DNA from: Sphaerolaimus hirsutus
Lineage: Eukaryota > Nematoda > Chromadorea > Monhysterida > Sphaerolaimidae
Assembly: GCA_964036195.1 (NCBI GenBank)
Contig: OZ038457.1
Span: 7,529,147 to 7,593,146, forward strand
Direction: 5' to 3'
DNA: 64,000 bases
How positions within the stretch are numbered: the stretch's first letter is position 1; each line of letters begins with the position of its first letter. Below the pieces are notes generated by a model that searched no databases, was not told where the DNA came from, and saw only the letters and a program-made list of their open reading frames with translations. The translations under genes were made by a program, and so were the position numbers. Positions 1 to 55,696 of this stretch are shown here, one piece after another.

Positions 1-3000
1 GCGCACAGCGCCGCCTCGTTCGCCAGCTCGTTGGCCAGCCAGGGCAGCTACTGGTTGAACGGGCAGCCCGACGACCGGCACTTGCCCGGCAGGACTGTGG
101 TGCCCAGAAAGGGTCATTTTTTGTTGTTGTCGGGTTCTTGTTGATATAAAGTTGTCAAATGGTGTTTAGTTCGGTGCATTTTTAGGCACGTCTTACATAC
201 CTGTTTCAACCAGCCCACTGATCGTTTAAGGTACTCCATTGAGCTCATTGCATAAGCATTGTACCGGTGATCATTCAACTGATTACTGTATTTTATCATT
301 GACCTCAATCCATTTTGTTCCCACACACTAGTTGACATCAAAATCCGTGTCAACTAAATTCAACTAAATTTTGGTAAATTATGTGATTTCAACTTTCCAG
401 TGTGATAGAGCATAAATAGTTTATTTTAAATCGTGACACATAGTTTTCAATGTTTCTGTTAAGTGTGATACTTGAAAATTGTATTATTTACTTGACATTC
501 AGTTGACACGAATTTGCGATGTCAACTAGTCTGTGTCCCCACTTTGACAAACCCAATCCCCAAACCACAGGTCGATCCGGCGGCGGCGGCCGCCGTCTGG
601 GCGACTCAGGCTTAACCTCAGATTCGGACGCGACGCGCCTGTTCGAGACGGACGACGACAGGTCGACGCGCGTGTCCACCTCCACCGACATCACCAGCGT
701 GTCCAGGCAGTTCCTCAAACAGAGGAGAAGAAGGAAACGTATGAGACCGCCGGCGTCCAGGGTTGGTTGTTGGCAGGGGTCTCCAGGATTTTGGCCCTCG
801 CGGGGGCTGGATAGATAGCAAATCGCTCCTCTGGAGGGATAGATAGCTGGAAAATTTTTCTGGGGGGGGGCTTGGGGGGGGCTGGCGGGGGCACAATATA
901 TAGGCTTTCTCAAGGTTATGAAGGCAGAAAGGGGAATTAATCGCTAATAATCAGTTAAAAGTAGCCAAAAGTAGGTATAAAATGGCTAAAAATAGGTATA
1001 TAACCAGGTATATAGCCGGAAAGCACGATTTTGAATGTGAAAAACTATAAAAAGGTGCGAAAATTGGTGATTTTGAGCGAAAATTGGGGCAAAATTTCTC
1101 AAAAACCACTCCAGATAGATAGATAGCTGAGCGATTTGGGGGGGGGTCTTTGGGGGTAGTAGCCAAAAATTTTGCCTCGGGATAGATAGATAGCTGAGCG
1201 GCCTCCGGGATAGATAGATAGCTGGCCGATTTGGGGGGGGGCAGCCCCCCCCCCCCTAGGAGACCCCTGGTTGTTGGCTTGGCGCCAATTGTCGCCGACG
1301 TGTGGCGTGATGGGATTTGTCTTTCTGGGCTTCCGGGCCGGTTTTTTGTTCGAAATGTTTTCTTAAGAAAAGTGCCGGTTAAGCCGTGGCCGGTTTCACA
1401 GTCTGTCAGCTGCAGGTATTCAGATTAAATTTGTCAAATGTCGTGTAAAAATTCCTGAATAATTTATCGCTTTTTGATGGCATTTGGGTGACATTGTATC
1501 GGCTACGGCACTGGTGCCACTCCCACACGCTGCCAAATTCCGTGTGAATTTTCAACTGTCATACAAAGTGTCAGAAGTCATTTAAAATGTCAAATTTCAA
1601 TTTATTTTTGTACTATTTGTTTCACGTTTTACACATTTTAAGTGTGGCCCCTGGACTTCAACATTTCGCACCGATCACTGAACCACCTATTCCTATTGAC
1701 CAATAACTCACACCCAACCCCTTCGTAGGCATCCTCGATCACCTCGGTGACGGAGTCGTCCATGTCGCTGAACATCGTCACGGTGGTGTTGAACATGGAC
1801 ACGGTCAACTTCTTGGGCATCAGCATCGTCGGCCAGACGGTCGTCGGCACGCAGCGCGGCGACGGCGGCATTTTCGTGGCGCATATTATGAAAGGTAGGA
1901 TCATTGGATTTATGTGCAAATTGGGTAGGAAAGAGGGGGTGGGGGATCAAAATCTAGAATACCAGTAATGTGGATAAAAATGGATAAATGTTAGGGTTTA
2001 TGTGTGGTACTTGTGCGATTGGTTGAACAACAACTAGTATTATATTCTGTTGTTTTCACTGTAAAAATCTCGAAAATTTTCAATTATATTCCTTCTATTT
2101 CAAAACAGACCCCACACACAGTTGCTAAGTGAATTTGAAACTTTCCATATTCTGCAGTGCCGGACAAAAGTTCTGCGAACCCGCATTCAGATCGTTCTCG
2201 ATTGATTTTTCTGTCGCCCTTCACCAAAATATCACTGTTCTTCAAACATGAACGCTTATAACACTCACTCCCCCCCCCCCCAGGCGGCGCGGTGGCACTC
2301 GACGGCCGCATCGAGCCGGGCGACATGATCCTGCAGGTGAACGAAGTCAGCTTCGAGAACCTGACCAACGACGACGCGGTGGCCGTGCTGCGCGACGCAG
2401 TCCACCGGCCCGGCCCCATCAAACTCGTCGTCGCAAAGTGCTGGGAGCCGGCCGGCTCCAAGTACTTCTCGCTGCAGCGCGCCGAGCCGGCCAGGTGCTA
2501 GTCGTGGACGCTGTGAATGGCCTTGTAAAGTGTCCAAATGTCACGCGAAGTGTCAAAAGTCATGTAAAATGCCCTGCGAAATGGCAACCGAGCAGGGCAT
2601 TTTACATGACTTTTGACACATCGCATGCCATTAGCACATTTTACAGGGCTATTCACAGTGTCCGGGACTGCCCCCAGGCCGATCGATCCCGGCGCCTGGG
2701 TGGCCCACACGAACGCCATGAGGGCGCTGCCGTCGATCTTGGAGGGTTCCGAGGGCGGCGGCACGCCCACCCCCACGCCGCATCAGGGTCTGCAGCCGCC
2801 GCATGCGTATAATAGGCCAGCCAGTGGCAGTGGCACGGCGGCAAGTCATAATTCTGGCAGTCATGGAGCCCAGAGTGCTGTCGATACTGAACGTGTGTTT
2901 TGGGGTTGTTGTTTTGTTTTGTTGATGGTGTTGTGAACGAGAGCTTTTGAATATACCGTATTTCTTCTAATAGAAGGACATACACCTTTTTTATGTTATT

Positions 3001-6000
3001 TGGGCGAGGGAAAAAAAGACGGGTGGTCCTTAATAGAACGCTACTGGTAGAATGATGCCAAATGCACAAAACAAAATTTGGGGCCAGTTCGGCAAGTCGT
3101 AGAGTAAAAAGGCAAACATTCCTCTTCACTATACATTACTTTTTACTCAACTCTTTACTTTTCTACTTGTGGAACCAGCACCAGGGGTACAGTCCCAAAT
3201 TGTCCACAGTGTATCCAAATCTTATTATCAAACATAAGATTTGGATACACAGTCGACACTTTGGGACTGCCCCCTGGTGCTGGTTCCACAAATGGAAAAG
3301 TAAAGAGTGGAAAAAACTTTCCTTTGTACTCTACCACTTGCGGAACTGGTCCCTGAGCGTGTGTTGTTATTTAGTGGCTTTTGTCCATTGATTTGGTGCC
3401 ACAATGTGGTGCGATTTGCGCAGAACTACCCATGTTGACCACCGAGATGGACCTGTCGCTGGTGGCCAAGTGGGCGGCGCGGCCCGAATCTGGTTTAGAA
3501 CAGCGCGACCGAACCTGGCTCAAGATCACCATACCGAACGCGTTTCTCGGTTCGGAGTTGGTCGATTGGCTGCTGAAGCACGTGCACGGCGTGCGCGACA
3601 GAAAAGAGGCGAGGAAAATCGCCGCCAATATGTTGAGAGAGGGCCACATCAGACACACCGTGAACAAGATCACGTTCGCTGATCAGTGCTATTACGTGTT
3701 CGCTGATATTGCGGATGGTTGGTGTTTTGAATGTTCACTGTGTTCGGATTTTGGGTTTGTTTTATTTTGCGTGTTTCTTTCTGCAGGCATGGCTGCCATG
3801 CAGTTGGCCGGCGCGCCTCCGGCGGTTTTTCACAATAGACGTTGGTTTTAATAGAAGAAATTGTAGGAAGTTTTTCCTATGACAGAATTTATTTTTTCGT
3901 AAATCTTTCGAAAATATCCACTTTGGGCCAAATAAAACATTATTTTCCGCCTGCTGTTAGGGCGTGCGCTAGGGTGCAGTTTCAACCGTAACCTGAATCT
4001 ACATTTACTCGGTTCTAAACAGTCAATATTTTATCTCACTTTTCTGCAAAAAACTACAAGTTCAAATCGATGTCGATATCTCCATTTGCCATCCACACAA
4101 CTTATTCAACACAATCATCAGTAATCTCGTACACACACAGCGGCGGAAGAAGGCGGGGCTGGCGATCACGACGGCCAATCAACGGCGACTGCGGCTTGGC
4201 CGAGCGAAAACGCCGGCTGGCCGGCGCCGCCCAGCACGGTTGGTACAGTTGCGGTGCTAGGTTTTTTTGCGGATGTTGTATTTTTAGGTGAAAGTGACTA
4301 TTTAGGATGGATTATTTCGGGAAATATTCTTGATTTAAATACACCAGATTTCTTCGAGATTGCATGGTATTTATATTGACTCACTCGAAACCTAAACCCA
4401 CCGGGATTCTTTTTTTGATATTTGTGTGGCTTAGGGATGGCCGGAAAAGGTTTTTTTTCAACCCAAGGTATAAAAAAAATAAAACCCGTTTTTTTTCAAA
4501 AGCTCCCAGATATGGTCATGAGTCAACATATATAGGTAAATCGGACAGGTAACAGTACTTTGTGATGTTATATATATAGCCATAGAATGGCTGTGGAGCC
4601 ATGGGATATCATTATAAGTGGTGATTTCTGTCAAAAATATCGTTTTATGTCGACTTATTACGTATATCGGCTTTTGTCGAACATTTGTGACTTCAAGTGC
4701 AGTTGGCTATTGAATAGTGTTTAAATTAGGTTACAATAGAAGGCTAATCTATAAGCAGTGATTTTTCACACTGTACAAGTATGTGGAGGCACATGACTGG
4801 ATATTATACACAACACCAACATATCACGGCTTATTATGACAGAATAGCATGAACAAATGGAAGCTTTCCCACAAATAATGATTCAAAACCAATGAAAACA
4901 ACCACCAATGGCCATGGGTATGTGAAATTGCGCGCTTTCGCGCAAAAAAATTTGCAAAATAGCTAGTGCTTAGTACTAAAAAATTTGGCTAAGGTTTTTT
5001 TAAATAAAAAAAACGGTTTCGATGGTCGGGTTTTTTTTAAAAATAAAACGTTTTTTATTTTAAAAAACCTTTGAAAAACACCCGAGCCATCCCTAGACTG
5101 TGGCTGTCATGTTGCTTTTTAAACACGTTATATGCAATACAATTTCTCAACTCTGGTATCTTTTCACAATCAACTTGCCCACAGGCGACGGGCTACCTGT
5201 GCATGCCGAATGTTCCCGCGACAACGAGCAGCGAATGCGCGCCGCCCATAGCCACTCCGTCTATGCACCGGCCGGTGAGCGTGTTTTTTCTTCTCTGTTT
5301 TGCCGCGCTGCCGCGCGAGTTGTGAATGTGTTTTTAACGTGTTTGTTACAAAATGCTCGGTAATCAATGTGAAATAGGCTCTACATTTACGTCCTGATAT
5401 ATTGCTGACATTTTGGCTACAGTTGCCATTTGAGCAAACGCGTTACCTCGCATTAGATCACTGATTTAGTGCAGTAGAATTAAGCACTGCGCGCAGGGGT
5501 TTAGTACTGTGGTTACCCCCCCCCCCCCAATTCACATCCCATTATAATCCCCCCTCGCCCCATCTACCCCCCTCACATCTACCCCCCCCCACATCTACCC
5601 CCTCACATCTACCCCGTCCCCCCCGCAGATGATGGCCACATTCGGCGGCAGCCAAGGGGGCGGCGGCGACATGCTGCAGTCGATGCCCGTGGCCGCCTGG
5701 TCCATGCAGCAGCAGCACCGGTCGCAGCCCGTGCCCGTGGCCATACCCAAGGCGCCCTGCCCCGTCGCTAAGAGCGAGGTGGGTGGGGGGGGGGGGTTGA
5801 GTGGAAATGGGTTACTGGGTTTTTCAATTTCAAAAAAGCTGTTTATATCGAATCATTTGAATGACTAGCACGTATCGGTGTCAAAATAGCCAGATATGAT
5901 TTTGAATATTCTATTTTGTATTTTATAAAAAAAAGTTTTAATCAATGTTGTAAACAAATCGAAAATTCATACACATCCTATCAAGACTTCAGATCGATTG

Positions 6001-10918: not shown

Positions 10919-11793
10919 CAGAGTTGGAAAAACGTATTTACGTTTACCCGAAATACCCGGTTATTCGGGTATTTATACTTACGTTTACGTTTACGTTTTT
11001 CAAAAATACCATTACGTTTTGTTACGTTTTCCTGACCAAAATACCCGGGTACTTGGGAAAACGTATAAAAAAAACTTGTAAATAATCGTTCACACGTGCA
11101 CATATTCAAATGGGCCGCACCACCTGCAGCCAACAATATTCTTATGTTATCGCATTAACGTAACATGACTGCACGCTTGCACATGGAATACTGGGTACAT
11201 ATTCATAAATGTGTTCAAACGCTGAACACAGAAACCTTTTTGTTAGCCTGTTTGTGGAGCCTTGCGTCTATAAAAAAATTTTTATGAATACCGACGACGC
11301 CACTTGCAACAACTGTGAGTAACATTTTTAAAATGTTTTGAAACTGGCAGGGCGAGTGCAAGCTCTGGTGCCATTCCCAGACCATGTAAAAAGCCCTGTA
11401 AAATGTCAAACGTCATGCAGAGTGTCAAAAGTCATAGAAAAAGCCCAATGGCAAAGGTTTCCCACCTTCCAGGGCATTTTGCATGACACTTTGCATGCCA
11501 TTTGACATTTTACAAGGCATTTTACAGGGTCTGGGACTCCCACAGAATCTCCAGCGTATAGTTGGATTTTGCCACACTTACAACGGAAACTGGTGCAGAT
11601 GGAGTGATTGACCCATCTAAAGGTGAAAATAATGGTATTTCCAAAGCACAAGTATTTTTACGTTTACGTTTTTTTACGTATTCCTTGGTATTTTAAAAAA
11701 ACCTTACATTTTAGTATTTATACTTTTGATTTGGAAAAGGTATTTACGTTTACGTTTACGTTTTCCAAAAATACCAGTATTTGCGCAACTCTG
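10919..11793. mobile_element. hAT-type element with CAGAGTTG ends (875 bp)
   Basis: Begins CAGAGTTGGAAAAACG, ends GCGCAACTCTG, and is flanked by an exact 8-bp duplication ATTGCAGC (10911-10918 and 11794-11801). The interior is rich in TTTACGTTTACG units near both ends. It carries a nested introner-like copy (11368-11545). A larger relative spans 27907-32996 with its own 8-bp duplication. Non-autonomous: no transposase ORF. Confidence 0.85.
11368..11545 (+). mobile_element. Introner-like repeat, intergenic copy nested in a hAT element
   Basis: Starts GTGCCATTCCCAGACC and ends GGTCTGGGACTCCCACAG with a palindromic interior (TGTCAAAAGTCAT, GGCATTTTGCATGACA-like). It retains a GT start and CAG end in the same orientation as an intron would need. 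178 bp, almost the length of the two intronic copies. Confidence 0.75.
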
Positions 11794-13126: not shown

Positions 13127-13282
13127 GGGGGCGGTCCCAGACCCTGTAAAATGTCAAATGTCATGCAAAGTGTCAAAAATCATGTAAAATGCCCTGCAAA
13201 TGGCAACCGAGTTGCCATTTTGCAGGACATTTTACATGACTTTTGACACTGCATAACATTTTACAGGGTCTGGGATTGGCAC
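13127..13282 (-). mobile_element. Introner-like repeat, intergenic copy
   Basis: On the minus strand it starts GTGCCAATCCCAGACC and ends GGACCGCCCCC; the interior is the same palindrome (TGTCAAAAGTCATGTAAAAT) as in the dsh and calcyphosin-like introns. No exon flanks it here. Confidence 0.75.
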
Positions 13283-13821: not shown

Positions 13822-15773
<1,952 letters not shown>

Positions 15774-17855: not shown

Positions 17856-18046
17856 GGGGCAGTCCCAGACCCTGTAAAAAAAGCTCTGTAAAATGTCAAA
17901 TGTCATGCAAAGTGTCAAAAGTTATGGAAAATGCCGTGCAAAATGGCAACCGAGCTGCCGTTTTGCAGGGCATTTTCCATGAGTTTTGACACTTTGCATG
18001 ACACTTGACATTTTACAGGGCTTTTTACAGGGTCTGAGATTGGCAC
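17856..18046 (-). mobile_element. Introner-like repeat, intergenic copy
   Basis: Minus strand: GTGCCAATCTCAGACC at the start, GGGACTGCCCCTT at the end, palindromic interior with TGTCAAAAGT units. Its last bases are CCCCTTGG rather than CCCCCAG, so it lacks the acceptor seen in the intronic copies. Confidence 0.75.
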
Positions 18047-20675: not shown

Positions 20676-20866
20676 TGTGCCACTCCCGGTCTCTGTAAAA
20701 AGCCCTGTAAAATGTCAAATGTCATGCAAAGTGTCAAAAGTCATGGAAAATGCCCTGCAAAATGGCAACCGAGTTGCCATTTTGCAGGGCATTTTCCATG
20801 ACTTTTGACACTTTGCATGACATTTGACATTTTACAGGGCTTTTTACAGGGTCTGGGAGTGCCCCC
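20676..20866. mobile_element. Introner-like repeat, intergenic copy
   Basis: Nearly perfect 191-bp palindrome: GTGCCACTCCCGGTCTCTG at the left, GGTCTGGGAGTGCCCCCAT at the right, with TGCAAAATGGCAACCGAGTT at the centre. Among the best preserved copies, so probably recent. Confidence 0.8.
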
Positions 20867-30932: not shown

Positions 30933-31020
30933 ATGTTGTCGCCGTCGACAGTCCGACAGACACTAACTCCAAGTTGGAAGATGGATTGCGTAAGTGTCGC
31001 TGTCGATGAATTGCCATTTA

Positions 31021-32702
31021 AACAGCGTTCGGATCAAGTCCGGCAGTCACTTTTTGAACGGACTTCTGACGCTACAACTCACGCTATGGGGAGAGTTAAG
31101 AGCTTAAATTTGGGGGGAATATAGCCGACATTCCCCCCCTACTATATACCAACGCAGATGCGACGGCGACCCGTTTTAGTGTGGGTCGCCGTATATGCAA
31201 AAAAAAAATTGTGCGGTTTTCGCTGTCCGGATCAAGTCCGGCACCCACTGGTTCTTCACCACTTCGGGTGCCGTAACTCCAGATACACGAACAGGATGAG
31301 TCTAAAACTTGGGGGATTAACGGCGACATCCACCGCTTACTGTACACAGGATGGCGAGCGCCACTGACACACAATAAGTGCCGCTCGCCGCGTATCTTGC
31401 GTTTTTTACAGACGCACTGTCTGCATCCAGACTGTTTGGCACTCCTGGATTTTCATGAAACAAATCGTTAGTTTACACAATATTTACAGTAAACTGTACG
31501 CTTTTGTACGTTTTACAATCCTACAGTACCATACCATACTGTACAATGTGACAAAATTTTGTGTCTAGTGTGAACTTATGACATCCCTTGAGTTGCATAC
31601 TAAAAATACACTTAAAATCGATTTTTTGTTAGACACTTAAAAAGTTGGTTTAGGATGCCCTCTAGGGGATAGGTTAAGGTATAAAGTTGTGTAAAAGACC
31701 TAACCCCAAAAATGCCCTGCTAAAGAATTTTGATGGGGATCAATGTGATGATGTCACCTATGACATCATTATGGTACAAATCTCTACTGCCATGATGTCA
31801 TAGGTGATGTCATCACATTGACCCCCATTAAAATTCTTTAGCAGGGCATTTTTGCACTAAGGTCTTTTACGGAACTTTATACCTTAAACTATCCCCAAGA
31901 GGGCATCCTAAACCAACTTTTAAAGTGTCTGACAAAAAATCGATTTTAAGTGTATTTTAAGTATGCAACTCAAGGGAGGTCAGAAATTCTGTTGATCAGT
32001 ACTGAACAGGAAATTTTGCTGCATTCTACAGCATGGTATGGTACTGCAGAATCGTAAAACATACAAAAAACTCCACTGTAAATATCATGATAACAGTATG
32101 GTTTTTAAATTTTACATTATCATATCTACTGTAAATTCAAATACCCATCCATCAATTGTGCAGGTGGGAACGATTCAGTGACGCTGGACGTGGTCACTTC
32201 AGGGCGCGTCAAGAACGTCAGAATTAACTCTAGTCGTTGATTTAACTCAAGTGTCACTTGACTCTTTCTGAAAAATGTTTTCGGGTGCCGCACCGGATGC
32301 GGACAGTGCGTCTGTAAAAAACGCAAGATACGCGGCGAGCGGCACTTATTGTGTGTCAGTGGCGCTCGCCATCCTGTGTACAGTAAGCGGTGGATGTCGC
32401 CGTTAATCCCCCCAAGTTTTAGACTCATCCTGTTCGTGTATCTGGAGTTACGGCACCCAAAGTGGTGAAGAACCAGTGGGTGCCGGACTTGATCCGGACA
32501 GCAAAAACCGCACAATTTTTTGTTGCATATATGGCGACCCACACTAAAACGGAACGCCGTGGCATCTGCGTTGGTATATAGTAGGGGGGGAATGTCGGCT
32601 ATATTCCCCCCAAATTTCAGCTCTTAACTCCCCCCATAGCGTGAGTTGTAGCGTCAGATGTCCGTTCAAAAAGTGACTGCCGGACTTGATCCGAACGCTG
32701 TT
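31021..32702. mobile_element. 1.7-kb nested palindromic element, TA-flanked
   Basis: AACAGCGTTCGGATCAAGTC at the left is mirrored by GACTTGATCCGAACGCTGTT at the right, each next to TA. The arms match for about 400 bp (31021-31435 with 32300-32702). A second inner palindrome (about 31593-31982) is centred on GTACAAATCTC near 31785. The ORFs at 31096-31374 and 32126-32542 are the two arms read from opposite sides, not genes. Confidence 0.8.
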
Positions 32703-33837
32703 TACATCCAAGAGCAGACTACCAAGTGGGCATCGGAAAAATCTTGTGGAAAGCTTGTGTTGATAGGAATAATTTGAAATTATGAATGGATATGATAAAT
32801 AAATACATCTAAAGGTGAAAGCAAACGTGTTTTCCGATGCTCAACAAGCAAGAGCACTTTCAAAAAAAAAATTACGCTTACGCTTTTTTTACGCTTTCCT
32901 AGCTATTTTAACAATACCTTACGCTTTAGTATCCACACTCAAAATTTGAAAAGTGTATTTACGCTTTCCAAAAATACCGGTATTTTAACAACTCTGATAG
33001 TCACTACATTTCTATTTCATTGCATCATCAGAATAGAATTTCCCTAATTGCAGACTATTCGGTGCACTGAACATTTAGGAATGTGAATGCATGCGGATAG
33101 AAAAGCCTACCACTATTGGTATTTATTTACTGGCGGCAACATAAAAACAATCATTTTTAATGTGTTTTTTCTCTCGAAATTTTCAAATTTTCAGTTTGTA
33201 TACTCCAGTTACTGTATACCTTGCACGCGTGGCTCCCGCTGGAAGCGTGGCAAGCGTATATAACGGATGCGATTTTCATAAAAAGTTGACAAAATTCATT
33301 CATGTTGTAACATTTTACGTTTTTAAAGCAATAAATTTTTGAATATTTATACAAAAATCGCGTGCATTAATTATCATTCCAACACAAGACCTAAATAAGT
33401 CCGAATGCACAGTAATAGGTAAGTTCGCTGAGTATAGTTTTTCGTAAATGGAATGCAGCTTGAAACATTTGTAGAACAATGAAATAAAATGTTAGAAAGA
33501 CAATATAGAAGGAAAATAATGAAATAATCAGTAGATTGTAATTGCGGTGTATTGACCTTTATTAAGGACGATAGGTAAAAAATTTGAAAATAAATTAAGT
33601 ATGGAAATGGCATCTAGAAATGGTGCTGCACATTTTTCACCATTGGTATTTTACTTCTGGTATGGGTAACTATACTGCAGTGTTTGGCATTTGGGATGAG
33701 GAACTGGATACTGTGGTCTGTAGCTCCAAACACACAAGTTTACAGTTGAAATTTTCAAAACGGGTAAATCTCATTCAAACACATGTTGAGTTTACCAGAA
33801 CAAATCATTTTTGATCTCTTTCAAGGTCTTCTCATTC

Positions 33838-39481: not shown

Positions 39482-39577
39482 CGCGAGTGGTTAGCTTAAT
39501 TCACTTCAGTGAACGGTGCGGCGCCTGATCAACGCCAAGCCGTTAAGTGATAAGTAACAAACGATCTGTCGCGCCGG

Positions 39578-42500
39578 GTGGAAACGCTGCGGTCAGGAGG
39601 GCCAGCGTCGATCCCAGGGTCAGTTGAGGAAGTGTGGAGAGCTGCAGAACAGCTACAGAAGCGCACGCGCCGAGAAGCGGCTTTACGCAGGGCACAGCAG
39701 ACTGCGGACGCGCAGGACGCTGAGGTTGAACAGGTAAGAGTTGAAGCAGGTGCGCAGGAAGCGGAAGCGGAAGCCGAGCGCGCACAGGAAGCAGCGACTT
39801 GGACCAGACGCACAGAGGATAGTACTCCCGTCGTCCGGCCAGTGCTGCAATTTGGAATTGCACGTGCAGGAACAGGCGGCAGCCGTTGGGATACGCCGGC
39901 TTGCGCGCCAGGTGCGCTACCGACTGGGGCGGCTCGACGAGCGTCCAGTGGAGGCACAGAAACAGAACGCCCACCAGATAGTCCGCTCCTGCGACCCGAC
40001 AGGCCAGTAAGTGCTGAGCCCGGGCGAGAGCAGCGGAAATCAAGTAAGTGGGGTTTATTTCGACGACCGTGGGGAAAAAGCGGCCGCAGCTCCCCGGTGT
40101 CGACAGGGTCTGGATCACAGGCTGATTCAGCAGGGTACGCTGGTGAAGACGAGCCCGTGAGTTCGTCTGCATACCAGCGTAGAAGTGGTGAGACTTCCGT
40201 AATCCTAATTGATACCCCAGTAGCGATCCCAGATATAAATATTGAATTTCCCTCGTTAGCCGAAGAGCTCGAAGAGGCGGAAAATTCATTGGGGGAGCTT
40301 CAATTAAGTGCCCCGCGAAGCTCATCCACACCACGCGAGCTTGCGTCCGCGCAAGGCTCGATTGAAAGCGGTGTCTCTTCGAATAGAGCACGGCGCAGAA
40401 TCGTAGGACCGTCTCCCATAAATCAAAGTAGAATGACCAGCACCCCACCCCCAGGTTCGAGTGTGACGACCGCGCCGGGCACGCTCACCACGGTGACGAC
40501 TACCCCGGCGGCCAACCAAGTGACACCGGGCCAGATACTGACGGCGGCGACCGCGGCGGACCCGGGCAGGGAAACCACTGGGTACACTAGAGAAGGTTGG
40601 ACCTTCCCGGGCATGATACAACTATTGCACCAGTGGTCTGGGGAACTTAGTCGCGCGGGACCAGCGGCGATTTCAGTCAATGCTTCCACAGCAGATAAAA
40701 ATAAGCTACAGGCCATTAGACTAGGCCTGAGTATGTACACCAGCGTAGGTAACCCTAGCGCGCTGGAGCAGGCCACTACTCAATTTTTGGCATTTTGTTC
40801 TAACAGGGGATTAATTCCACCCATAGCATCGGCAGCTAATGCTACCTTGGGCGCGGGAACGGCCCCTGGGAACACAACCGCGCAGACTGTGCCCCCGCCG
40901 GCGAGTGTAAGCGGATCAGCGGGCGGCAGTGGAGCGGCACCTGCGCCTGCAAACGCTACGGCTCAACCAGCTACCAGTGTAATCAATTTGGCGGGACAGC
41001 CGGGTCCCTCCTCCCCAGGATCGTCAGGATCGCTCTCACCTGCACCTAATCCTACGGATCCAGACTATCTGGCGCAGCACCAGGTGTTGCACGGCACGGC
41101 CGCTACGCTGACCGCCCTGGCTACGCAGTGCGATGCATTCACTGGAAGGGCTGACAAGAGTTTCAAGGATTGGAGACGTAAGTGGGATATTTTGTGTGAT
41201 GCGCTAGGTGTTTCAATGCGCTCTAGGCAAAAGTTGCTGCCTATCTTTTTACAAAAGAATGCCAATTCTATCTTTGTAGCTAGAAGGCGGGAACTGCGCG
41301 CACTTGATTACAAAGCCATGATGGATCGTTTAGAAGAATTGTTTGCAAACCCAAACGCCCAGCACCATGCACAGCGCGAGTTTATTGAGTCAACTCAAAG
41401 TCCCACTGAATCTGTGCTGGATTGGGCAACTAGATTGGAACGTGCAGTAAAGCGCGCATATCCAATGCTGCATTCCGCCCAAAGGGAAGGCATGTGCATC
41501 ACTAAGTTTCACCAGGGGTTGGACAAGGACATTAGGCGCAACCTGGCGGTGCACGCCAATATAAGCTGGAAGGAATTAGTTGATAATGCACGCATGCAAG
41601 AAAGCTACAAAAACCTTGAAACCGTTCAGAAGGAACATGCGAAGTCGGCCAGCGAGATCGTCGCCGAGACGTCGAACCAGGTCATGGAGCGCATCATGGC
41701 CATGAACCTGCACCCCTCGGTCCAGTCGATGGAGGCAGAGGGTGCCGAGAATGTGAAGCTCAAGGCCAAGGAACGGGCGCTCGACGAACGACAGAAAAAA
41801 CTCGACGCCCAGGAAGCTAAGATGATGGGCGCACCGCGCCCGAGGCGTGAGTTACCGCCCAAAAGGTTTGAAAATGGATGTTGGGAATGTGGATCTCCTG
41901 ATCACTTTTGCTACCAATGTCCAAATAAGCCCCCTCCCGAGCCATCTGCCGGCAACGATAGCAATCAGCGTGGCCGCGGAGGCGACTTTCGTGCGCGCGG
42001 TAGAGGTGGCGGCCGAGGGCGAGGCCGTGGACAGGGAGGACAATATCCACAAAACTTTGGGTATCCAGGTGGATGGGTACCGATGCAATTAAGTCAACCT
42101 ATGACCGTGCCTTCCTCGCAGATGATGCAGCCTGTGTACGTTCAGAGCCAGCAGCCCGCGGCCATCGGATGGCACCCACAGCCACAACCGGCACAACGGC
42201 CGTTGGAATCGCAGCAAGGCCAGAGCAGCAGCGTGCCGCTGTTGAACCCGACGACAGTGACACAGGTGGGTGAATGCACTTACAAGGCCGTGACCGAGTC
42301 ACCGCCGTCTTATGCTAGAATTCTCTTCCATCATGATCAACTATTGACATTGCAAGGGCTGGAACCGGAAGCCCCTGACGAGGAGGAGGAGATGGAGGAG
42401 CAACCTGTAGCTAGCCTTCAGTGTAAAATGCACGCGCTCATGGTAGATCGGGAACAGTGGATTAGCCACTGGGCGTATCAACGCGAAGCCACGTCAATCC

Positions 42501-42706
42501 TATTTCGTACCAGTTGGTTAGATTATCTGCGGCGCACTGCAATGCATGATCTGAAGGATGAAGATTGTGTGGTGCTCCCAGACTGTCGCCCGCATGACGA
42601 CCACAATGATACGCTTACTAGAATCGAGTGGAGGGTTTTGCGTGACGCCCCATTAGACCCATTCCTAAATGAGCCCCCGGTGATTTTGTCCCCGCGTACG
42701 TTTTGA
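39578..42706 (+). CDS. Gag-like polyprotein of the Ty3-like element
   Basis: Forms the particle and binds the RNA. The frame is open from 39554 to the stop at 42704-42706 (about 1040 residues). The N-terminal third is charged, with an Ala/Glu/Arg-rich probable coiled coil and Ser/Thr/Pro-rich linkers. Residues about 520-700 resemble a retrotransposon capsid (FKDWRRKWD...ITKFHQGLDKDIRRNL). A CCHC zinc knuckle (CWECGSPDHFCYQC) is at 768-781, followed by an RGG-rich RNA-binding stretch. A PPSY motif at 909-912 resembles a retroviral late domain. The first in-frame ATG is codon 286 (40433); the upstream part looks coding, so initiation may be non-AUG or on a spliced RNA. The antisense ORF over it is a shadow. 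Confidence 0.8.
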   Translation: METLRSGGPASIPGSVEEVWRAAEQLQKRTRREAALRRAQQTADAQDAEVEQVRVEAGAQEAEAEAERAQEAATWTRRTEDSTPVVRPVLQFGIARAGTGGSRWDTPACAPGALPTGAARRASSGGTETERPPDSPLLRPDRPVSAEPGREQRKSSKWGLFRRPWGKSGRSSPVSTGSGSQADSAGYAGEDEPVSSSAYQRRSGETSVILIDTPVAIPDINIEFPSLAEELEEAENSLGELQLSAPRSSSTPRELASAQGSIESGVSSNRARRRIVGPSPINQSRMTSTPPPGSSVTTAPGTLTTVTTTPAANQVTPGQILTAATAADPGRETTGYTREGWTFPGMIQLLHQWSGELSRAGPAAISVNASTADKNKLQAIRLGLSMYTSVGNPSALEQATTQFLAFCSNRGLIPPIASAANATLGAGTAPGNTTAQTVPPPASVSGSAGGSGAAPAPANATAQPATSVINLAGQPGPSSPGSSGSLSPAPNPTDPDYLAQHQVLHGTAATLTALATQCDAFTGRADKSFKDWRRKWDILCDALGVSMRSRQKLLPIFLQKNANSIFVARRRELRALDYKAMMDRLEELFANPNAQHHAQREFIESTQSPTESVLDWATRLERAVKRAYPMLHSAQREGMCITKFHQGLDKDIRRNLAVHANISWKELVDNARMQESYKNLETVQKEHAKSASEIVAETSNQVMERIMAMNLHPSVQSMEAEGAENVKLKAKERALDERQKKLDAQEAKMMGAPRPRRELPPKRFENGCWECGSPDHFCYQCPNKPPPEPSAGNDSNQRGRGGDFRARGRGGGRGRGRGQGGQYPQNFGYPGGWVPMQLSQPMTVPSSQMMQPVYVQSQQPAAIGWHPQPQPAQRPLESQQGQSSSVPLLNPTTVTQVGECTYKAVTESPPSYARILFHHDQLLTLQGLEPEAPDEEEEMEEQPVASLQCKMHALMVDREQWISHWAYQREATSILFRTSWLDYLRRTAMHDLKDEDCVVLPDCRPHDDHNDTLTRIEWRVLRDAPLDPFLNEPPVILSPRTF

Positions 42707-44464: not shown

Positions 44465-47400
44465 TCACATGCTGGTGGTGGTGGGCGCCAAAGTGATGAG
44501 TGGCGTTTCCACAGTCGCCTCGGTGGTGAACGTGGTCGTGCGCGAAGTCGTGGGTGTGCGTGAAGTTGCAGGTCTGGTTGCTGGTGATGCCAACGCCGAC
44601 CTAGCCTGATGATGAAGCAGGTAGTTGCCTGTGTCGCTTCCTGCGCGTTCGCGTGTGGTGAATTTGCGGATATCAGGCATGTGAACACTGTCTCTGTTCC
44701 TGGCTCTGACTTGTCCCTCATCAGCTGAACTTTCATCTGGCTGAACGTATGCTGATAGCGACTTTGCCATTCTGTCCTCTGTTTCTGCTCTCCTGGCAAA
44801 TCTGACGGACTGTGTTGAGTTGGATCTGGCTCTCCTCTTGATTGCTGGTTTCAACTCTGTTTTGCGCACCTTTCTCTGTGGGTAATTGGTCTCTTTTTGA
44901 GTTGACTTCTTGATAGTGTATCTGACGGCTCTGAAGCATAGCCATATGCACTTGAATGGACACACTATGCATTTCCATATGCATGTGTATACGCATGGTG
45001 GAATCACTGGTTTCCCTGTGGCAATTCTCCAATTGTACCACAGGTATCCTGCAGCAACAATTCCAGCTACTAGGATTGTGATTCCCAGCAGCATTGCGAT
45101 TGTGTTGATGATCACTTGAAAGGGTCCTTTTAGCATTCCTCCCATAAAGTTGGTGTATCCTTTTGATACTCCAGATATGTAGTGACCATATGCTTTGCCG
45201 ATTCCTGCTGCTGTCTGTCCAATTCCAGATCCAATGCCTTCTATTGAATTTCTGATCACTCTGGGATCCAATGACATGTCTGCTGTGTAATCAATCAACT
45301 GATTCTGCACATGCTCTAAATTCTGTAGTCTCTGAATCTGGCCTCTGACATCCATGAAATTGGTCGCTCTGTTGACAATGTTGGTGAACAGGTGAGGCGC
45401 ATCAAACGTGAAGGCCTGCCACTGTCCTTTCCATGTCATTTCAATTGGCGTCTCTGTGACATGCACCATTCCATGTGCGGACTTCCACTGTCCATGCTCA
45501 TTTCTGTACAGGTGTGGTGTAGTGTGGCTGCAGTCCTCTTCTGGTGATTTCTCCACCAAGTCTCTGCTGCCTGGGCTTTTGAACCATAAGGGCCCGTCTT
45601 TGTCCAATCTCATTGGTGTGTATTTGTAGCATGTCTCTCCCACTCTTCCTGTCTGATAAACTATGTATGGCTGCACTTCCTTGCATTCCCAAAACATAAT
45701 TGCTTCTCCAGCCCATTCTGCGTGAACATCCTGTCTTCCCAGCATGGCTCGAATCCCCAGTGTTGGATCGATGCGGAAAAGCTGAGTCAACATGTCCAGT
45801 TGGTTCTTGCGAAGTTGACATAGCTGATGCCATACAATCGCAAATTGTGCCTGAGTCATTTCTCTGACCACATGTTGTAGGAACTGAAACTTGGAATTTC
45901 TGTCGTCCAATCTGGCATACAATGTTCCACTGATTGTCGACTCCCTTGCCTCCACTAATTTTCCTGGCATTGCCCATTCCACAGGCACATCTTCTCTTCT
46001 GTCAAACTGGATGAATACACCTCCTTGATCGGTGTAGTATGTGTCTCCCGGAACACATTCTGAACCAATTGGCCTCTTTGTCTTGTTGCTGTGGGAGTAT
46101 GCTGCTTGCAATTTTGACACAATAATTGTCTGGCCAGATATCTCTGACTTGAATCTGCCAATTCTCTCATATGCGCATTGATGCTTGAAGTTCTCCGTGT
46201 CCCACACTGTGATTCCATAGTTGTGGTCTCTGCAATGTCCCATCATGGCTCTGCACTGGCTGAAATCTTGCAAGTCGCTGATTACAGTCTTTCCATCAAG
46301 TGAAGCTACGGTTCCTTCTTCCATGTAGAAGTTACTGACGACATTTTCTTTGTCATGACAACACCATGAATATTCCACATTCAAGGTTTGATTGGTTGTC
46401 CACACTCTGGGCTCCATTTCTACCAAAGGTGTTCCTCTGAACATCTTGTGAATTCTTGCATAGTTACAGGCTACCACGCCAACTTGCTGGTATTTCTCAA
46501 AATTGCCTGTAATGCCTTTTGCTCCCCAGAAACTGGTGTGTGTGATGATTTCTTTGATTCTGATGTAGCATCTGTATGCTTTCTCTTTCTGTGGAATCTG
46601 TCTCTGTGCATAAAGTGTAACTTTCATTGCCTTGACAAAATTCCTTGGTGGGATATGGCACTGCACTTCTTCAGGGACTGTAAGCGCATGTCCATGCCTC
46701 CCACTGGTGCAAATCTGATACTTCTGGCTTTGTGAGCTGATCGCTTGTTCCACAGGATGATCCTTAATTGCATCCTTGAATCTCTCATAAGTCTGCATTT
46801 CTCTGACAGATTTTGGTGGCCATTCTGAAGGCAAAGGCGGCAATCCGTGATGCGCTGCCAATGATGGTGGCCTTACTGTCGAGGTTTCTAGAACGTATGT
46901 TCTGGAAAATACTTCGTTGTAAGCTTTGCCGGCTTCTCTCAGTGTTGCTGACTCTGACATGCCTGTCAGCATCAACACCATGCACAGCATTCCAATCACT
47001 AGATTGCTGGTGGTTGCTGTGGCCTTCCCTGTTGCACTCCTCAGGACTCTATCTGATGCTGAGTTCCTCTGAGCAGGGTTTTGTACAGAGTCTCTGTTTG
47101 AGCTCTGATTTCTGACATGTTTCTGGACAATTGCTGGGTCCAGTAAATCCACTTTGACTGTCACTGCTGTCTCTGGGATATCCATTGTCTTTGAATTGAT
47201 TTCCAGCGGATACAATTGATTGGGTGGTCTGCTGACCACATTTCTGTTGGCAGTTCTGACTTTTGCTGAGCGAATCTGTCCATCTTTGCTGGGCTCTAAC
47301 TGCTCGATGCGACCCATCTTCCATGCACCTCTGGGCATGTTCTCTTCATAAATCAGCACAACTTCATTCACTTTGGGTTCTTGAGTCGCTGTCAATCTGC

Positions 47401-48625
47401 CATGTTTGTGTGTCACCTGAGTTCTTTCCCTCAAGCTTGGGATATACTCTTGATGCCACAAGTCCCAGAACTTATCCAAAGTTTGCTGGGTTGTCTCCCA
47501 ATATTTCTGCAGTTTCGCTGCGTTATCCATTCTGGGCATAAATTCTCCATCTTTGTCTGCATCAAACTGTGGTGCTCCAATCTGACCTTCCCCTGTCAGG
47601 AAGTCTTTTGGCGTCAGCACTCTGAGGCTCTTTACATCACCATAGATGTAAGAGATTGGCCTGCTGTTGATCACTGCCTCGACTTCTGGCAGAAGTGTCA
47701 ACAATTCTTGCAGGGTTAACATTCTGTGCCCCACAGCTGCTTTGAAATGTTTCTTGGTGATGCCCACCATTCTCTCATAGACTCCTCCCTGCCACGGTGC
47801 CATAGGAGTAGTCATGTTCCACTGGATTTGTTGCTGTGAGCAGTAAGTCTGTACTGCTCCACTTTTGACCATTTCTGACCATTCTTTTCCAATATTAATG
47901 GCCTTGTCCGTGCTTGTGCTGAGCACTTTCTCTGTCAATTTGAATTGCGTCGCATTGTCTGAAATCACTGCCTCAGGCTTTCCGCGCCTGGCGATGAATC
48001 TCCTGACTGCGTTCAGGAATTCCTGTGCTGTCATATCCAGCACACTTTCCAGGTGAACTGCACGTGTCACCATGCATGTGAACAAACAGATCCACATTTT
48101 CCTGTGATCTTTGTCCACTTTGTACCAAACTGGTCCCAAATAATCCAAGCCCGTGTACTGGAACGGTCTGGCTCTCTGAACTCTGGTTTCTGGCAAATTT
48201 GGCATTGGTGGAAGCTGGTACGGCTTCGCTCCCAATTTCTTACAGGTTGGGCAGGTTCTGGTCACATTGTAGATCACCCGTCTGCCCTGTGTAATCCAGT
48301 ACTTTTGTCTGATCGCTGCCAATGTATGTTGCACTCCTGCGTGCATCAACTTCTCATGCTGGTCTCTGACGATCAGCTGAGTCACTGTAGCCGTTGCTGG
48401 CAACAGTATGAGTGGCACTGTGACCTCCTGTGGGTCTGTATGCTCCATTCGGCCATGGCACTTCAGGATTCCATCCTGATGCATTTGCACATTGAGCCAT
48501 TTGATCAACTGCTGGTCTGCAGCTGCTTTCTTGCCATCCTGGCTGCCTCTGCTGTGGCTTGTTGCCAGAATCTTTGCCACTCCTTTGTAATGATTCTGTT
48601 GCGTCACTTTGATCCAATATTTCAA
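44465..48625 (-). CDS. BEL/Pao integrase joined to an Env-like glycoprotein
   Basis: About 1386 codons in one frame. The N-terminal part is integrase: a zinc-binding HHCC module (HEKLMHAGVQHT...CPTCKK), then the DDE core (LDYLGPV, ISDNATQF, GGVYERMVG) and a C-terminal domain. From about residue 530 comes a hydrophobic segment (NLVIGMLCMVLMLTGM), a large Cys-containing ectodomain-like region, a membrane anchor near the end (GITILVAGIVAAGYLWYNW) and a Cys-rich then basic tail. This looks like an envelope-type glycoprotein following integrase without an intervening stop. The first codon is not ATG; the frame is open upstream and overlaps the preceding Gag-Pol frame, so a one-base shift connects them. 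Confidence 0.82.
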   Translation of the reverse strand: MKYWIKVTQQNHYKGVAKILATSHSRGSQDGKKAAADQQLIKWLNVQMHQDGILKCHGRMEHTDPQEVTVPLILLPATATVTQLIVRDQHEKLMHAGVQHTLAAIRQKYWITQGRRVIYNVTRTCPTCKKLGAKPYQLPPMPNLPETRVQRARPFQYTGLDYLGPVWYKVDKDHRKMWICLFTCMVTRAVHLESVLDMTAQEFLNAVRRFIARRGKPEAVISDNATQFKLTEKVLSTSTDKAINIGKEWSEMVKSGAVQTYCSQQQIQWNMTTPMAPWQGGVYERMVGITKKHFKAAVGHRMLTLQELLTLLPEVEAVINSRPISYIYGDVKSLRVLTPKDFLTGEGQIGAPQFDADKDGEFMPRMDNAAKLQKYWETTQQTLDKFWDLWHQEYIPSLRERTQVTHKHGRLTATQEPKVNEVVLIYEENMPRGAWKMGRIEQLEPSKDGQIRSAKVRTANRNVVSRPPNQLYPLEINSKTMDIPETAVTVKVDLLDPAIVQKHVRNQSSNRDSVQNPAQRNSASDRVLRSATGKATATTSNLVIGMLCMVLMLTGMSESATLREAGKAYNEVFSRTYVLETSTVRPPSLAAHHGLPPLPSEWPPKSVREMQTYERFKDAIKDHPVEQAISSQSQKYQICTSGRHGHALTVPEEVQCHIPPRNFVKAMKVTLYAQRQIPQKEKAYRCYIRIKEIITHTSFWGAKGITGNFEKYQQVGVVACNYARIHKMFRGTPLVEMEPRVWTTNQTLNVEYSWCCHDKENVVSNFYMEEGTVASLDGKTVISDLQDFSQCRAMMGHCRDHNYGITVWDTENFKHQCAYERIGRFKSEISGQTIIVSKLQAAYSHSNKTKRPIGSECVPGDTYYTDQGGVFIQFDRREDVPVEWAMPGKLVEARESTISGTLYARLDDRNSKFQFLQHVVREMTQAQFAIVWHQLCQLRKNQLDMLTQLFRIDPTLGIRAMLGRQDVHAEWAGEAIMFWECKEVQPYIVYQTGRVGETCYKYTPMRLDKDGPLWFKSPGSRDLVEKSPEEDCSHTTPHLYRNEHGQWKSAHGMVHVTETPIEMTWKGQWQAFTFDAPHLFTNIVNRATNFMDVRGQIQRLQNLEHVQNQLIDYTADMSLDPRVIRNSIEGIGSGIGQTAAGIGKAYGHYISGVSKGYTNFMGGMLKGPFQVIINTIAMLLGITILVAGIVAAGYLWYNWRIATGKPVIPPCVYTCIWKCIVCPFKCIWLCFRAVRYTIKKSTQKETNYPQRKVRKTELKPAIKRRARSNSTQSVRFARRAETEDRMAKSLSAYVQPDESSADEGQVRARNRDSVHMPDIRKFTTRERAGSDTGNYLLHHQARSALASPATRPATSRTPTTSRTTTFTTEATVETPLITLAPTTTSM

Positions 48626-51600
48626 CGCAATCTCTCTCTCTTCAATGCTGATAATTCCCTGTGGTTCATTGTACCACAGATACTTTCCATAATTTCTGAC
48701 AGTCCACTCTGACTGCCATTTCTGCTGCGCTTTTTGTGCATCTGTCGCACAAATCTCATCACATATACTGTTGCATCCAGTAATTTCGTCAGTGATGAGA
48801 ATCTCTGAATCTCAATTCCCAATGGGTTGCTTTGCTTGCTTTCGTCAGCTTGCACATTGCTGGCATCTGGGTTACTGACCACTTGCTGTGTGGCGCCCAG
48901 GTAAATTGGACTGGCTTTTGGGAACTTGAGCTCTTCTTTCTTGATTTCTGCCATTACTTCTGGCGTGACTGGCTCCACTTTTGGCTCTGGCCACTCTCCA
49001 GTCATTAGCCATTCTGGCCCCTTCCACCACAGGTTACTGCCTTCCAACTCTGACATATTCATGCCTCTTGTGGCCATGTCAGCTGGGTTCTCCAGTCCTG
49101 CGATGTGTCTAATGTGCATGTTCTCTGTCTCACTCTGAATTTTCCTGATTTCATCCAATCTGTTCTTGACAAAACATGCCAGTGGCTTCGCTGTTGTTAG
49201 CCACTTCAGACAACAGGTTGAATCTGACCATACAACTGTTTGACTGAATTTGACGTCCTTGAGCTCCTTGTGAATGAATTTCGACATTCTGCTGCCGATC
49301 AACATTGCTAACAATTCCAGCCGTGGAATTGTCACTTCTGGTTTCTTTGGAGCGAGTCTCAATCTGGAGTACAGCAGGCTTGACGTACCGCTGTCATTTT
49401 CTGTTTTCTGGCATATGTATGCCGCTGCGCTGTATGCCATTGCTGAGGCATCGACGAAGATGTGCAGTTGTGCATCTGCACCACTCTGATAATTCAGATT
49501 TCTGTTGAACTTGATCTGTCCAACTTTGAGCAACTCTGTCTCCAATTGCTGCCAAATTGCTGTCTGTTCCTCAGACAGGGGAGTATCCCACTCTTTGGCA
49601 CTTGGTCCTGAATGCCATAACGTTTGCAAAAATCTCTTTGCTGGCAGTAGGACAGGACTGACAAGTCCCATTGGATCAAAACATCCCGCAGTCACCTTCG
49701 CAACTGTCCTTTTCGTGGGAAGTTTGATTTTCTGGTCAGTTTCTGATAATTGTGATTGCTGAACTGTCTTTGGCGTTTTCAGCCACATCTGGTCGCTCTC
49801 TGTGTCCCATTTCATTCCTAGGACTGTTGTGACAATTTCCTTGGCCACATCTGACTCTGCCAATTGCCAAGTAAAGCTCTTATTGTTGCTGTTCCATTCT
49901 CTCAGATTCATCTGTGCTTCTGTGAACAGCACTTTGGATTCCTGGTACAATTCGATTGCTTTCTGCTCTGTGTCCACACTGAGGATCAAATTATCCACAT
50001 ACAGATTTTCATCGATCAATTTTGCATTTTCTGTGCCAGCTTGATTCAGATGGTATCTAACTGTCAGCGCTAGCAGCGCTGGGCTGCAGATTATACCAAA
50101 TGGCACTCTGGCAAATCTGTAAATCTGAATGTTGTCCTCCATGGATGGTTTCGTGGGATCTTTGTACCACAGAAATCTTGTCACATCTCTGTCACTGTCC
50201 TGCAGACTAATCTGCAGAAACGCTTTCTCTATGTCTGCGACCAGTGCAATTCCATACAACCGGAATCGCATCAGCATCCCTACCAGCTGTGGTAGTATCA
50301 CTGGACCGCGATACATGCACTCATTCAAGCTTGGCATGCCTGGCGGTTTTGCTGAGGCGTCATATACCTCTCTGACCTTTGTGGTAGTTTTCTCTGGCGT
50401 TATCACTGGTTGATGAGGCAAAATATGGAACTTTCTACCATCCATAATATCCTCTTGAACTTTTTCAATCACTCCTTGCTCCTCTTGTGCTTTCATGATT
50501 GCCTGAATTTTCTCTAGTAATTCTGGGTCTCTCTTGAGCCTGTTGGTGAGGTATCTGAACCTTTTGAACGCCATTGCTTTGTTGTCTGGTAGTTCATGCA
50601 AATTTGGCTTGTACATGAACTTTACAGAGTACCGTCCATCTGGGTTTCTCTGTACACTCTCATTGAATTGCTTGATGGCCTCATCATCCTCGACAAGGTC
50701 TGGCTGGTCCATTATGCCAATGGTATCCAGTCTGTCCATATCTTTGACATTTGGTACAGGAGCAATTGACAACGGTGCTTCCTCGTACCACTTTTCTCTC
50801 TGAATTTGATGCACAATTGTGTTGACCACCACCGGATATGCGCCATCCGTGGTCCATTGATTTCTGTTGCTCGTCAGCTGCCCACCTCCCATCAGCAATC
50901 CCAATTCTGATGGAATGACATACAATCCTGACGGAAGTCTGGTGGTGCTGGTGTTTCTGGACATCAAGTCCCAGAAATAATTCAAGCCCACTATAATGTC
51001 TGGCTTGAACTTGCATTCTGTCCCTTTTTCCTTGGGAATTCTGTCTGCAAAGTAACTTTCATCCGGGAAGTACTTCTGCAGGTACTTTTCGTCCTGTTCT
51101 GATACAGGCACTTTGATTTGTTCTGTGGTCAACGTCGGGACCACATCAGCCACCATATCAACTTTCTGGCCATTTCTGAGCCGCATTCTGAATTCCACTT
51201 GCTGTACTACTTTATAGTGCGGCTTTTCATTTCCGAATGTGTACACCTGGATGTGGTGTTCACCTGTACTCTTCAAATTGAGTTTCTTGGCCACTTTCTC
51301 TGACATGTACGTTCCCTGGGATCCTGTGTCCAGGAACGCTTGAATCTGTAGTGGTGGCTGTTCAGGCTCCATCTCTGTATCCATTTCTGAAGCCTCAATC
51401 ACGGTTCTGGCTGTCATCAGCATTGACATATTCCTGTTTACTGACAGGTTCACTGACGTATTCTCTTGCTTTGTATTTGGTTCTGTAACCACCGTGCTGG
51501 ATATGGTTTCTGTCTCTACCATTTCTGGTCCAGCTTCTTCCACAGTGACACAATTCACTGTGGCTTTTCTCTGTTGGCTCTGTGCTGGTCGACCGGCTGT

Positions 51601-53166: not shown

Positions 53167-53190
53167 TTTCGCTGATGAATTTTCCTTCAC

Positions 53191-54391
53191 TGTTTCTCTT
53201 TATAGTGCGTCGCCTGTGACGCTTGGGATGCTTCTCTGCGTCTTTCTGTGTAGTGTTCTGTGCACCACGGATTTGTTGTGCCACGCACAATACCAATGCA
53301 ATCCTACAGGCCCCTGACGTGTTCTCACGCGTTGACCTTTACTGCACTGGCACCAGGTGTGTTCCTAAAGCCCCTGACGTGATTGTTTACACGCGTTGAC
53401 TTCAACACACCGGTCAAATCCACCTGGACAATAAACAAGTTCTTTGCCCAGTAGTGTGCGCCCAAAGAGGGTCCGTACACACTCTTTCTGAGCGCTCTGG
53501 CGCTCTTTCTGGCACGCCTGTGTGCCTTGTGACCACGCCGGCCACTTGCTTTCCTGAGCGGCTCCTGCCGCTGTGCGCAGTGCTGCGCTTGCCGTGTCAC
53601 CTGTGACACGTTTCTGTACACTCTGGTGCACTTTCTGATTCTGGGCAGTGTTTCTGTACACTGCTCTGCAATTGCGCCTGTGCAATGCAGAATTCTGGCA
53701 CTTTTGTGCTGTCTGATCTGATGGTACCGAGCAGGCACAGCGTGTATATTTGATGGGAGCTCCGCAAAGCCCCTACACGCTACCAAGTATCCTAATACTT
53801 GGTTTTCAAATCCACTCTCTGTCAGCTACAGCCCTCTGTCAGCTACAGCCCTTTGTACACTGATACCCCTACTTTTGCACTTCCGAGGTATGAGTCCACT
53901 CTTACCCAGTGGAGCGAGGGACCTCCGCGAATGCCCAAAAACAGCCCTTTGACTAGCGTGGCTCTGTGGCGATCCTGTCTCCGTCAGGTCACCCTCCCTT
54001 GGCATAGGAAGGACGTGCGAGCGGTCACTGGCGTCCGGATGTCCAGGAGCGTCCAGCGAAAGTTTGACCACCGTCCGACAATGACTCCTTGTCAAATGCC
54101 GGTGCCGCCCAGCGTCTAGCACCTTGCCAGAGCACTGGTGAAAGCTGCCTGAAATCCTGACAGGCTTGTCAGAACTCCAGTGTCCTCCGCGCGTGAGCGT
54201 AGAACCGCTCCCAGGATGTAGACAGGAGTGCCGTGACTTTGGCACAATGCTGTCTGCAAATCAACAGCCAACGCTCAGCCAAGGCCAATTGATGTTCAGC
54301 AGGACTTTTGAAGTTCTGCCAACTGCCGCACAATGTTCGTTCCGGCTTGGTGATAGCACAATGTCATGCAATCACCCTGCTCGCTGCGCCA
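53191..54391 (-). other. 5' leader of the BEL/Pao element
   Basis: About 1.2 kb between the 5' LTR and Gag. On the minus strand the base next to the LTR begins TGGCGCAGCGAGC, in the place of a primer-binding site; I cannot assign the tRNA. ORFs here are short and lack features. Confidence 0.6.
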
Positions 54392-55689: not shown

Positions 55690-55696
55690 CACTTTG
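55690..55696. repeat. Target-site duplication of the BEL/Pao element (right copy)
   Basis: CACTTTG, matching 43116-43122. Taking one copy away with the element puts the interrupted host frame back in phase. Confidence 0.8.

Follow-up and report, generated by a model that had tools for sequence, protein, structure and literature searches.

A dishevelled intron that is very probably an introner, from a CWG-targeting MITE family with apparent non-AG acceptors

Introduction

Introners have been reported in 175 of 3325 genomes (PMC9860276). Among animals and land plants, Gozashti et al. 2022 place them in two groups only, both of them animals, with copepods named (PMC9860276). The family described here resembles those introners, which are short non-autonomous repeats that form introns in many genes, some with terminal inverted repeats and with duplications of 3-9 bp, and it resembles the Chrysochromulina type in particular, which brings the 5' splice site itself and relies on the duplication for the 3' site (PMC9860276). 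It differs in that the duplication is CWG and half of the sites lack an AG; that paper, where it touches on splice sites, mentions rare GC and GA donors, but not TG acceptors (PMC9860276).

Two other systems are close. The introner elements of Amoebophrya share direct repeats of 3-5 nt, inverted-repeat hairpins and many non-canonical borders with our family, but Amoebophrya is a dinoflagellate with highly varied borders, whereas the donor is always GT in the single family described here (PMC7789003). Tunicates are likewise animals that tolerate introns departing from the GT/AG rule, with introners as a possible source; 95% of the tunicate introns depart from it, whereas the remaining introns of the dishevelled (dsh) gene studied here, read by eye, end in AG (PMC13326754).

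Introners are thus a known kind of element, and what would be new, judging from the sequence comparisons below, is a family that targets CWG, with apparent non-AG acceptors, in an animal with nematode-type cuticle collagen in its genome (PF01484, E 1.1e-12). Among the matches listed in our literature search, none, judged by title and abstract opening, reported introners from nematodes or related animals, and the combination of a CWG MITE, a GT donor and half of the sites without AG in an animal was not found in print among those matches. A 2025 introner survey, absent from those matches, may cover this genome already. In animals, the gain of an intron is seldom observed as it happens.

Results and discussion

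The dishevelled intron

Positions 2495-2677 of the window, by which we mean the whole 64,000-nucleotide stretch that was analysed, form a dsh intron that consists of one 180-bp palindromic element and one CAG of a duplicated 3-bp target. The element itself (2495..2674, + strand) is a near-palindrome that begins with GTGC, which is the splice donor, and ends with GCCCC. The left CAG (2492..2494, +) forms the final bases of the upstream exon (2283..2494, +), which holds the end of the PDZ domain and stops at a phase 2 junction, and the right CAG (2675..2677, +) is the splice acceptor ahead of the downstream exon (2678..2880, +, the 3' limit being approximate and set by eye). The type of duplication was read from the empty site of another copy, described below. 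At the donor junction (2494/2495) the exon ends with GCCGGCCAG and is followed by GTGCTAG; at the acceptor junction (2677/2678), GACTGCCCCCAG is followed by GCCGATC. When the two exons are joined, the protein aligns with human DVL2 (8wm9, E 2.8e-59) without a gap at the junction.

The arms of the dsh element (2488-2577 and 2592-2681, 90 nt each) are 83% complementary, and its RNA folds at -133.7 kcal/mol, with a z score of -17 against 200 shuffles. The junctions, the arm pairing and the fold all agree with the sequence-only reading, in which the intron was a single palindromic repeat whose ends give the donor and the acceptor.

Copies in the window and in the genome

Allowing at most one mismatch, 8 occurrences of the motif GGGACTGCCCCC were counted in the window, where 0.13 would be expected, and self-BLAST of the window gave five more copies and one partial copy. 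Identity in the main alignments is 71-83%, and the window copies are therefore diverged. The sequence-only reading had them as near-identical repeats, one of them in a second, unrelated gene; the further copies and the second gene stand, while the near-identity does not.

That second copy (15552..15731, - strand) coincides exactly with an intron in a gene for a calcyphosin-like EF-hand protein. On the donor side CAG is followed by GTGCCAATCC, which begins with GTGCCA, and on the acceptor side CCCCCCAG is followed by TGC, with a single additional C ahead of the CAG. The first coding exon of the gene (15732..15773, -) has the left CAG as its last bases, and the joined protein aligns with a calcyphosin-like chain (11yj, E 8.6e-57) ungapped at the junction. 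The best calcyphosin relative found has just 58% identity. Four other copies were non-exonic by the codon score described below, at 11368..11543 (+), 13128..13282 (-, with a CTG/CTG duplication), 17856..18046 (-) and 20677..20865 (+, with CAT/CAT flanks). A different palindrome lies in another dsh intron (3142-3316) and has a terminal GGGACTGCCCCC in common with the family.

A family in this genome had been supposed from the window, and the genome search found thousands of copies: the left end of the family (24 bases, at most one mismatch) occurs 7215 times in the 348-Mb genome, and the reversed control 0 times. The dsh intron used as a genome query gave 84 matches (40 scored of 1777 candidates). 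The consensus element is 189 bp long with the 5' end GTGCCA; divergence from it is low overall, with a median of 6.7% in the exonic copies (n=22), and the dsh copy differs by 14.6%.

For closer study we assembled 65 distinct full copies. Besides those of the window, they came from 30 BLAST-top loci, a set biased to the kin of the dsh copy, from 10 longer regions and from 20 C1 loci that cover 21 listed ends in one contiguous run of the left-end list. Duplicates were left out, as were ends with no partner within 280 bp (L048, L049 and L052 among those listed). Longer elements with family ends were seen in two of these, at 2450-4049 of L049 (1.6 kb) and 2433-2785 of L052 (353 bp); no transposase was recognised by eye in the reading frames of L049. 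The 24-base end of the family was absent from the viral contigs searched.

Exonic copies and intron gain

Exonic copies were recognised by a codon score with leave-one-out training on 14 copies vetted by Pfam, PDB match or eye, which was applied to 64 of the 65 copies (one was dropped for a short flank). At a cut-off of at least 12, set post hoc when the scores were already known, 23 of 64 copies are exonic, and all 23 are in the sense orientation, with the GT end 5' in the sense of the gene. A reversed element would make an intron beginning with GG, which fits this one-way orientation. Eleven of the 23 lie outside the training set, and these are sense in 11/11. By source, 14 of 32 BLAST-top copies are exonic, 5 of 20 on C1 and 4 of 13 others. 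Applying the exonic fraction of the listed C1 ends (5/21, 8-47%) to 7215, the family may, as a rough figure, offer a thousand or more exon insertions.

Lowering the cut-off to at least 9 gives 24 sense and three antisense copies (L012, L023 and L057), the antisense call for L057 having a sense score close by, at 8.8. Random 180-mers reach a score of 12 in 137 of 4000 cases, split 76 vs 61 between the strands. Support is weak for three of the 23 copies: L037, with a left flank of 0.9, one L004 copy, with a right flank of -3.3, and L055, whose left flank by itself favours antisense. In 22 of the 23 exonic copies the left and right flanks agree on the reading frame, compared with 267 of 506 false joins. 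Two copies have low codon scores despite Pfam support, the nicotinic acetylcholine receptor (nAChR) copy L014 and the MAM copy L028, so the score misses some exons.

We also considered a dedicated exon subfamily and rejected it. In a tree of 57 of the 65 copies (length 120-205) the exon label changes 11 times vs 14.1 when shuffled, with 28 of 500 shuffles as low as 11, a weak clustering.

The protein comparisons support the same junctions. Alignments are ungapped at the join for DVL2 (dsh), the calcyphosin-like protein, Kir2.2 (L026) and SLC4A11 (L015). In the Pfam test (30 entries from 26 copies), a family was matched at E of at most 0.001 in 12 of 26, the rest being read by frame alone. The match spans the join in cuticle collagen (L009, 48 residues over 48 positions), the HCO3 transporter (L015), IRK (L026) and a kinase (L003), and matches below the cut-off run through the join in TOG (L029) and MAM (L028). 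In nAChR (L014), 7tm (L004), ion channel (L033) and cadherin (L059, twice) the match is one-sided or at most reaches the join, and the frame is open through it. Since the Pfam family of L018 is a transposase-type HTH, the gene at L018 is possibly not one of the host's. By reading frame and homology, members of one family appear to form introns in the unrelated genes dsh, calcyphosin-like, Kir, SLC4A11, collagen and kinase.

In a search of the genome with the joined Kir protein, the gene itself is split at the insertion. Of the five other Kir loci, four show no break through residue 28, though an intron follows later in one of them. The fifth, a close paralog (89%), is interrupted where the first gene is, and the gap there is ~341 bp. 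The intron is thus not general to the Kir family, and the comparison of paralogs suggests that one Kir gene acquired it.

The elements might instead have entered or replaced introns that already existed, with the border match secondary. MITEs are often found in introns, and a partial family copy (1506..1589, +, found by self-BLAST) does lie inside another dsh intron. We think this very improbable, since the element and one 3-bp copy make up the whole dsh intron with no remnant outside the duplications, the calcyphosin intron is likewise accounted for save one extra C, the joined proteins of all four genes aligned above are ungapped at the junction, and no intron interrupts four of the five other Kir genes at that point.

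The dsh intron is very probably an introner, made by insertion of a short non-autonomous DNA transposon (MITE), as the sequence-only reading had proposed; the copy number, the exact exon junctions, the sense-only exonic copies and the Kir paralogs agree with it, as does the CTG empty site described next. The MITE (consensus 189 bp) would have inserted into a dsh exon at CAG and duplicated that CAG, so that the 5' end of the element (GTGCCA in the consensus) came to serve as donor and the second CAG as acceptor. Removing the element and one CAG restores the message as it was before insertion. The same family probably made introns in many genes of the genome. That its copies are removed from mRNA by splicing is suggested by the reading frames.

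Target duplication and transposon class

The L047 copy, which is CTG/CTG, reads catCTG, then the element, then CTGctggcg, and the empty site in its paralogs L046 and L045 reads catCTGctggcg. L046 is 97% identical over 240 nt, ungapped, and L045 93%. The comparison shows a clean 3-bp target duplication of CTG.

Among the listed C1 ends, the 47 pairs that lie 60-1500 bp apart are CAG/CAG in 25 cases, CTG/CTG in 16, CTG/CAG in 5 and CAG/CTG in 1, so that the duplications match in 41 of 47. Five of the 47 pairs are longer than 900 bp, including the sole CAG/CTG pair, whose left end also belongs to a proper 189-bp pair; leaving these five out, the counts are 22, 15, 5 and 0. In the 65 copies, mismatched duplications (donor side/acceptor side) are CTG/CAG in 6 and CAG/CTG in 1, with L053 appearing in both mismatch counts; of the six, L043 is non-exonic.

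Duplications of CWG (5'-CWG-3') define the NuwaI transposons of the PHIS (PIF/Harbinger) superfamily, found mainly in animals, and the target duplications of our family are those of the NuwaI group (PMC4482050). The two differ in that NuwaI elements, in the part of that paper that bears on the group, are not presented as intron makers, and in that the present family has no linked transposase (PMC4482050). Mobilisation may have been by a NuwaI-type transposase, which would be expected to be a DDE enzyme with a Myb/SANT partner and the same terminal inverted repeats. The genome has 163 matches to the PF13359 transposase, and none is tied to the ends of the family. Targeting of CWG means that about half of the insertions fall on CTG.

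One PIF/Harbinger-type transposase (PF13359) is at L061 (G000:C1:2186200-2186950), and more than 100 listed matches have nearly equal score and span. The main PF13359 family spans the profile plus 192 bp, that is 189+3, which hinted at an introner inside the transposase. We rejected this for the L061 copy, because the 751-base stretch has short introns and no element.

Acceptor sites

Only part of the insertions yield an AG acceptor, a point that the sequence-only reading missed. The acceptors of the 23 exonic copies are AG in 12, TG in 8 (7 CTG and 1 TTG), CG in 2 and GG in 1. CTG stands on the left of 12 of the 23 exonic copies compared with 1522 of 3286 left ends genome-wide, so CTG insertions in exons are not avoided. 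In both Kir (L026) and SLC4A11 (L015) the insertion at the ungapped protein junction is a CTG insertion, and an AG at -19, used with the GTGCC donor, would shift the frame. It appears from these junctions that GT...TG introns are spliced in this animal, or else that some other process removes the CTG copies exactly. C. elegans is able to splice without an AG. TG acceptors in human, as described in the paper cited here, are always alternatives to an AG (PMC2374985).

The CAG:CTG ratio is 1337:934 on the acceptor side and 1764:1522 on the donor side (chi-square 14.5, p 1.4e-4, counting all copies, exonic or otherwise). This acceptor-side surplus of CAG, together with the bias of the mismatched duplications to CTG/CAG, is what selection toward AG would give.

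The exonic CTG insertions could be broken or allelic copies in the assembly, with only the CAG copies being real introns, and TG acceptors are indeed non-standard. We regard this as unlikely, because CTG is not depleted in exons, the seven CTG/CTG exonic copies are 4-10% from the consensus, inside the CAG/CAG range, and both flanks have open frames.

It is about as doubtful that the CTG copies are spliced GT-AG at nearby alternative sites with few residues altered. A search for such sites, covering GT donors near the element ends, found mild in-frame options for L010, L011, L025 and L055 among the 8 CTG/CTG copies tested, and for L024 (CTG/CCG). Against this, the options found for L015 and L060 are net +24 nt or more, and the closest option for L026, at net -3, replaces conserved residues in an ungapped membrane segment.

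Somatic excision of the elements from DNA, as with the IESs of ciliates, would need no AG, and exact removal between short direct repeats accounts equally well for the CTG sites. Programmed DNA elimination of that kind is expected to be independent of strand, however, and DNA excision would not require the gene-sense orientation seen in 23 of 23; the mismatched duplications also favour AG at the acceptor side. We consider it extremely improbable.

We give splicing at non-AG acceptors roughly an even chance. Exonic CTG insertions would then be tolerated and removed as GT...TG, or occasionally GT...CG or GT...GG, introns, and some acceptors would later have changed from CTG to CAG. In its full form, in which we believe about as much as we doubt, the spliceosome may accept TG, and apparently CG and GG, given the hairpin of the element and its C-rich 3' end, and hence the MITE could invade exons at both CAG and CTG, the CTG acceptors being slowly corrected to CAG. 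If so, a transposon has built animal introns at scale under a relaxed 3' splice-site rule. A CAG target gives the new intron an AG end and a CTG target does not, a built-in control with which both the penalty for lacking an AG acceptor and the selection to repair such acceptors are directly measurable. The family also suggests that the target preference of a transposon can pre-adapt it to intron making.

Other elements in the window

A Bel/Pao-type retroelement (44465-53199, -) has RVT, Peptidase_A17, DUF1759 and integrase zinc-binding matches, and a later stretch of it matches a Monjiviricetes-type viral fusion glycoprotein (PF24664, E 1.9e-16). A second retroelement (55589-61370, +) has an RT/RNaseH/integrase ORF, and the ORF ahead of it matches PF24664 weakly (E 3.9e-7). 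There is also an ORF of 1050 aa (39554-42706, +) whose gag-like match, to PNMA, is weak and below the cut-off (E 2.4e-4), and a nested palindrome of 1.7 kb (31016-32707) whose outer arms are 95-97% complementary.
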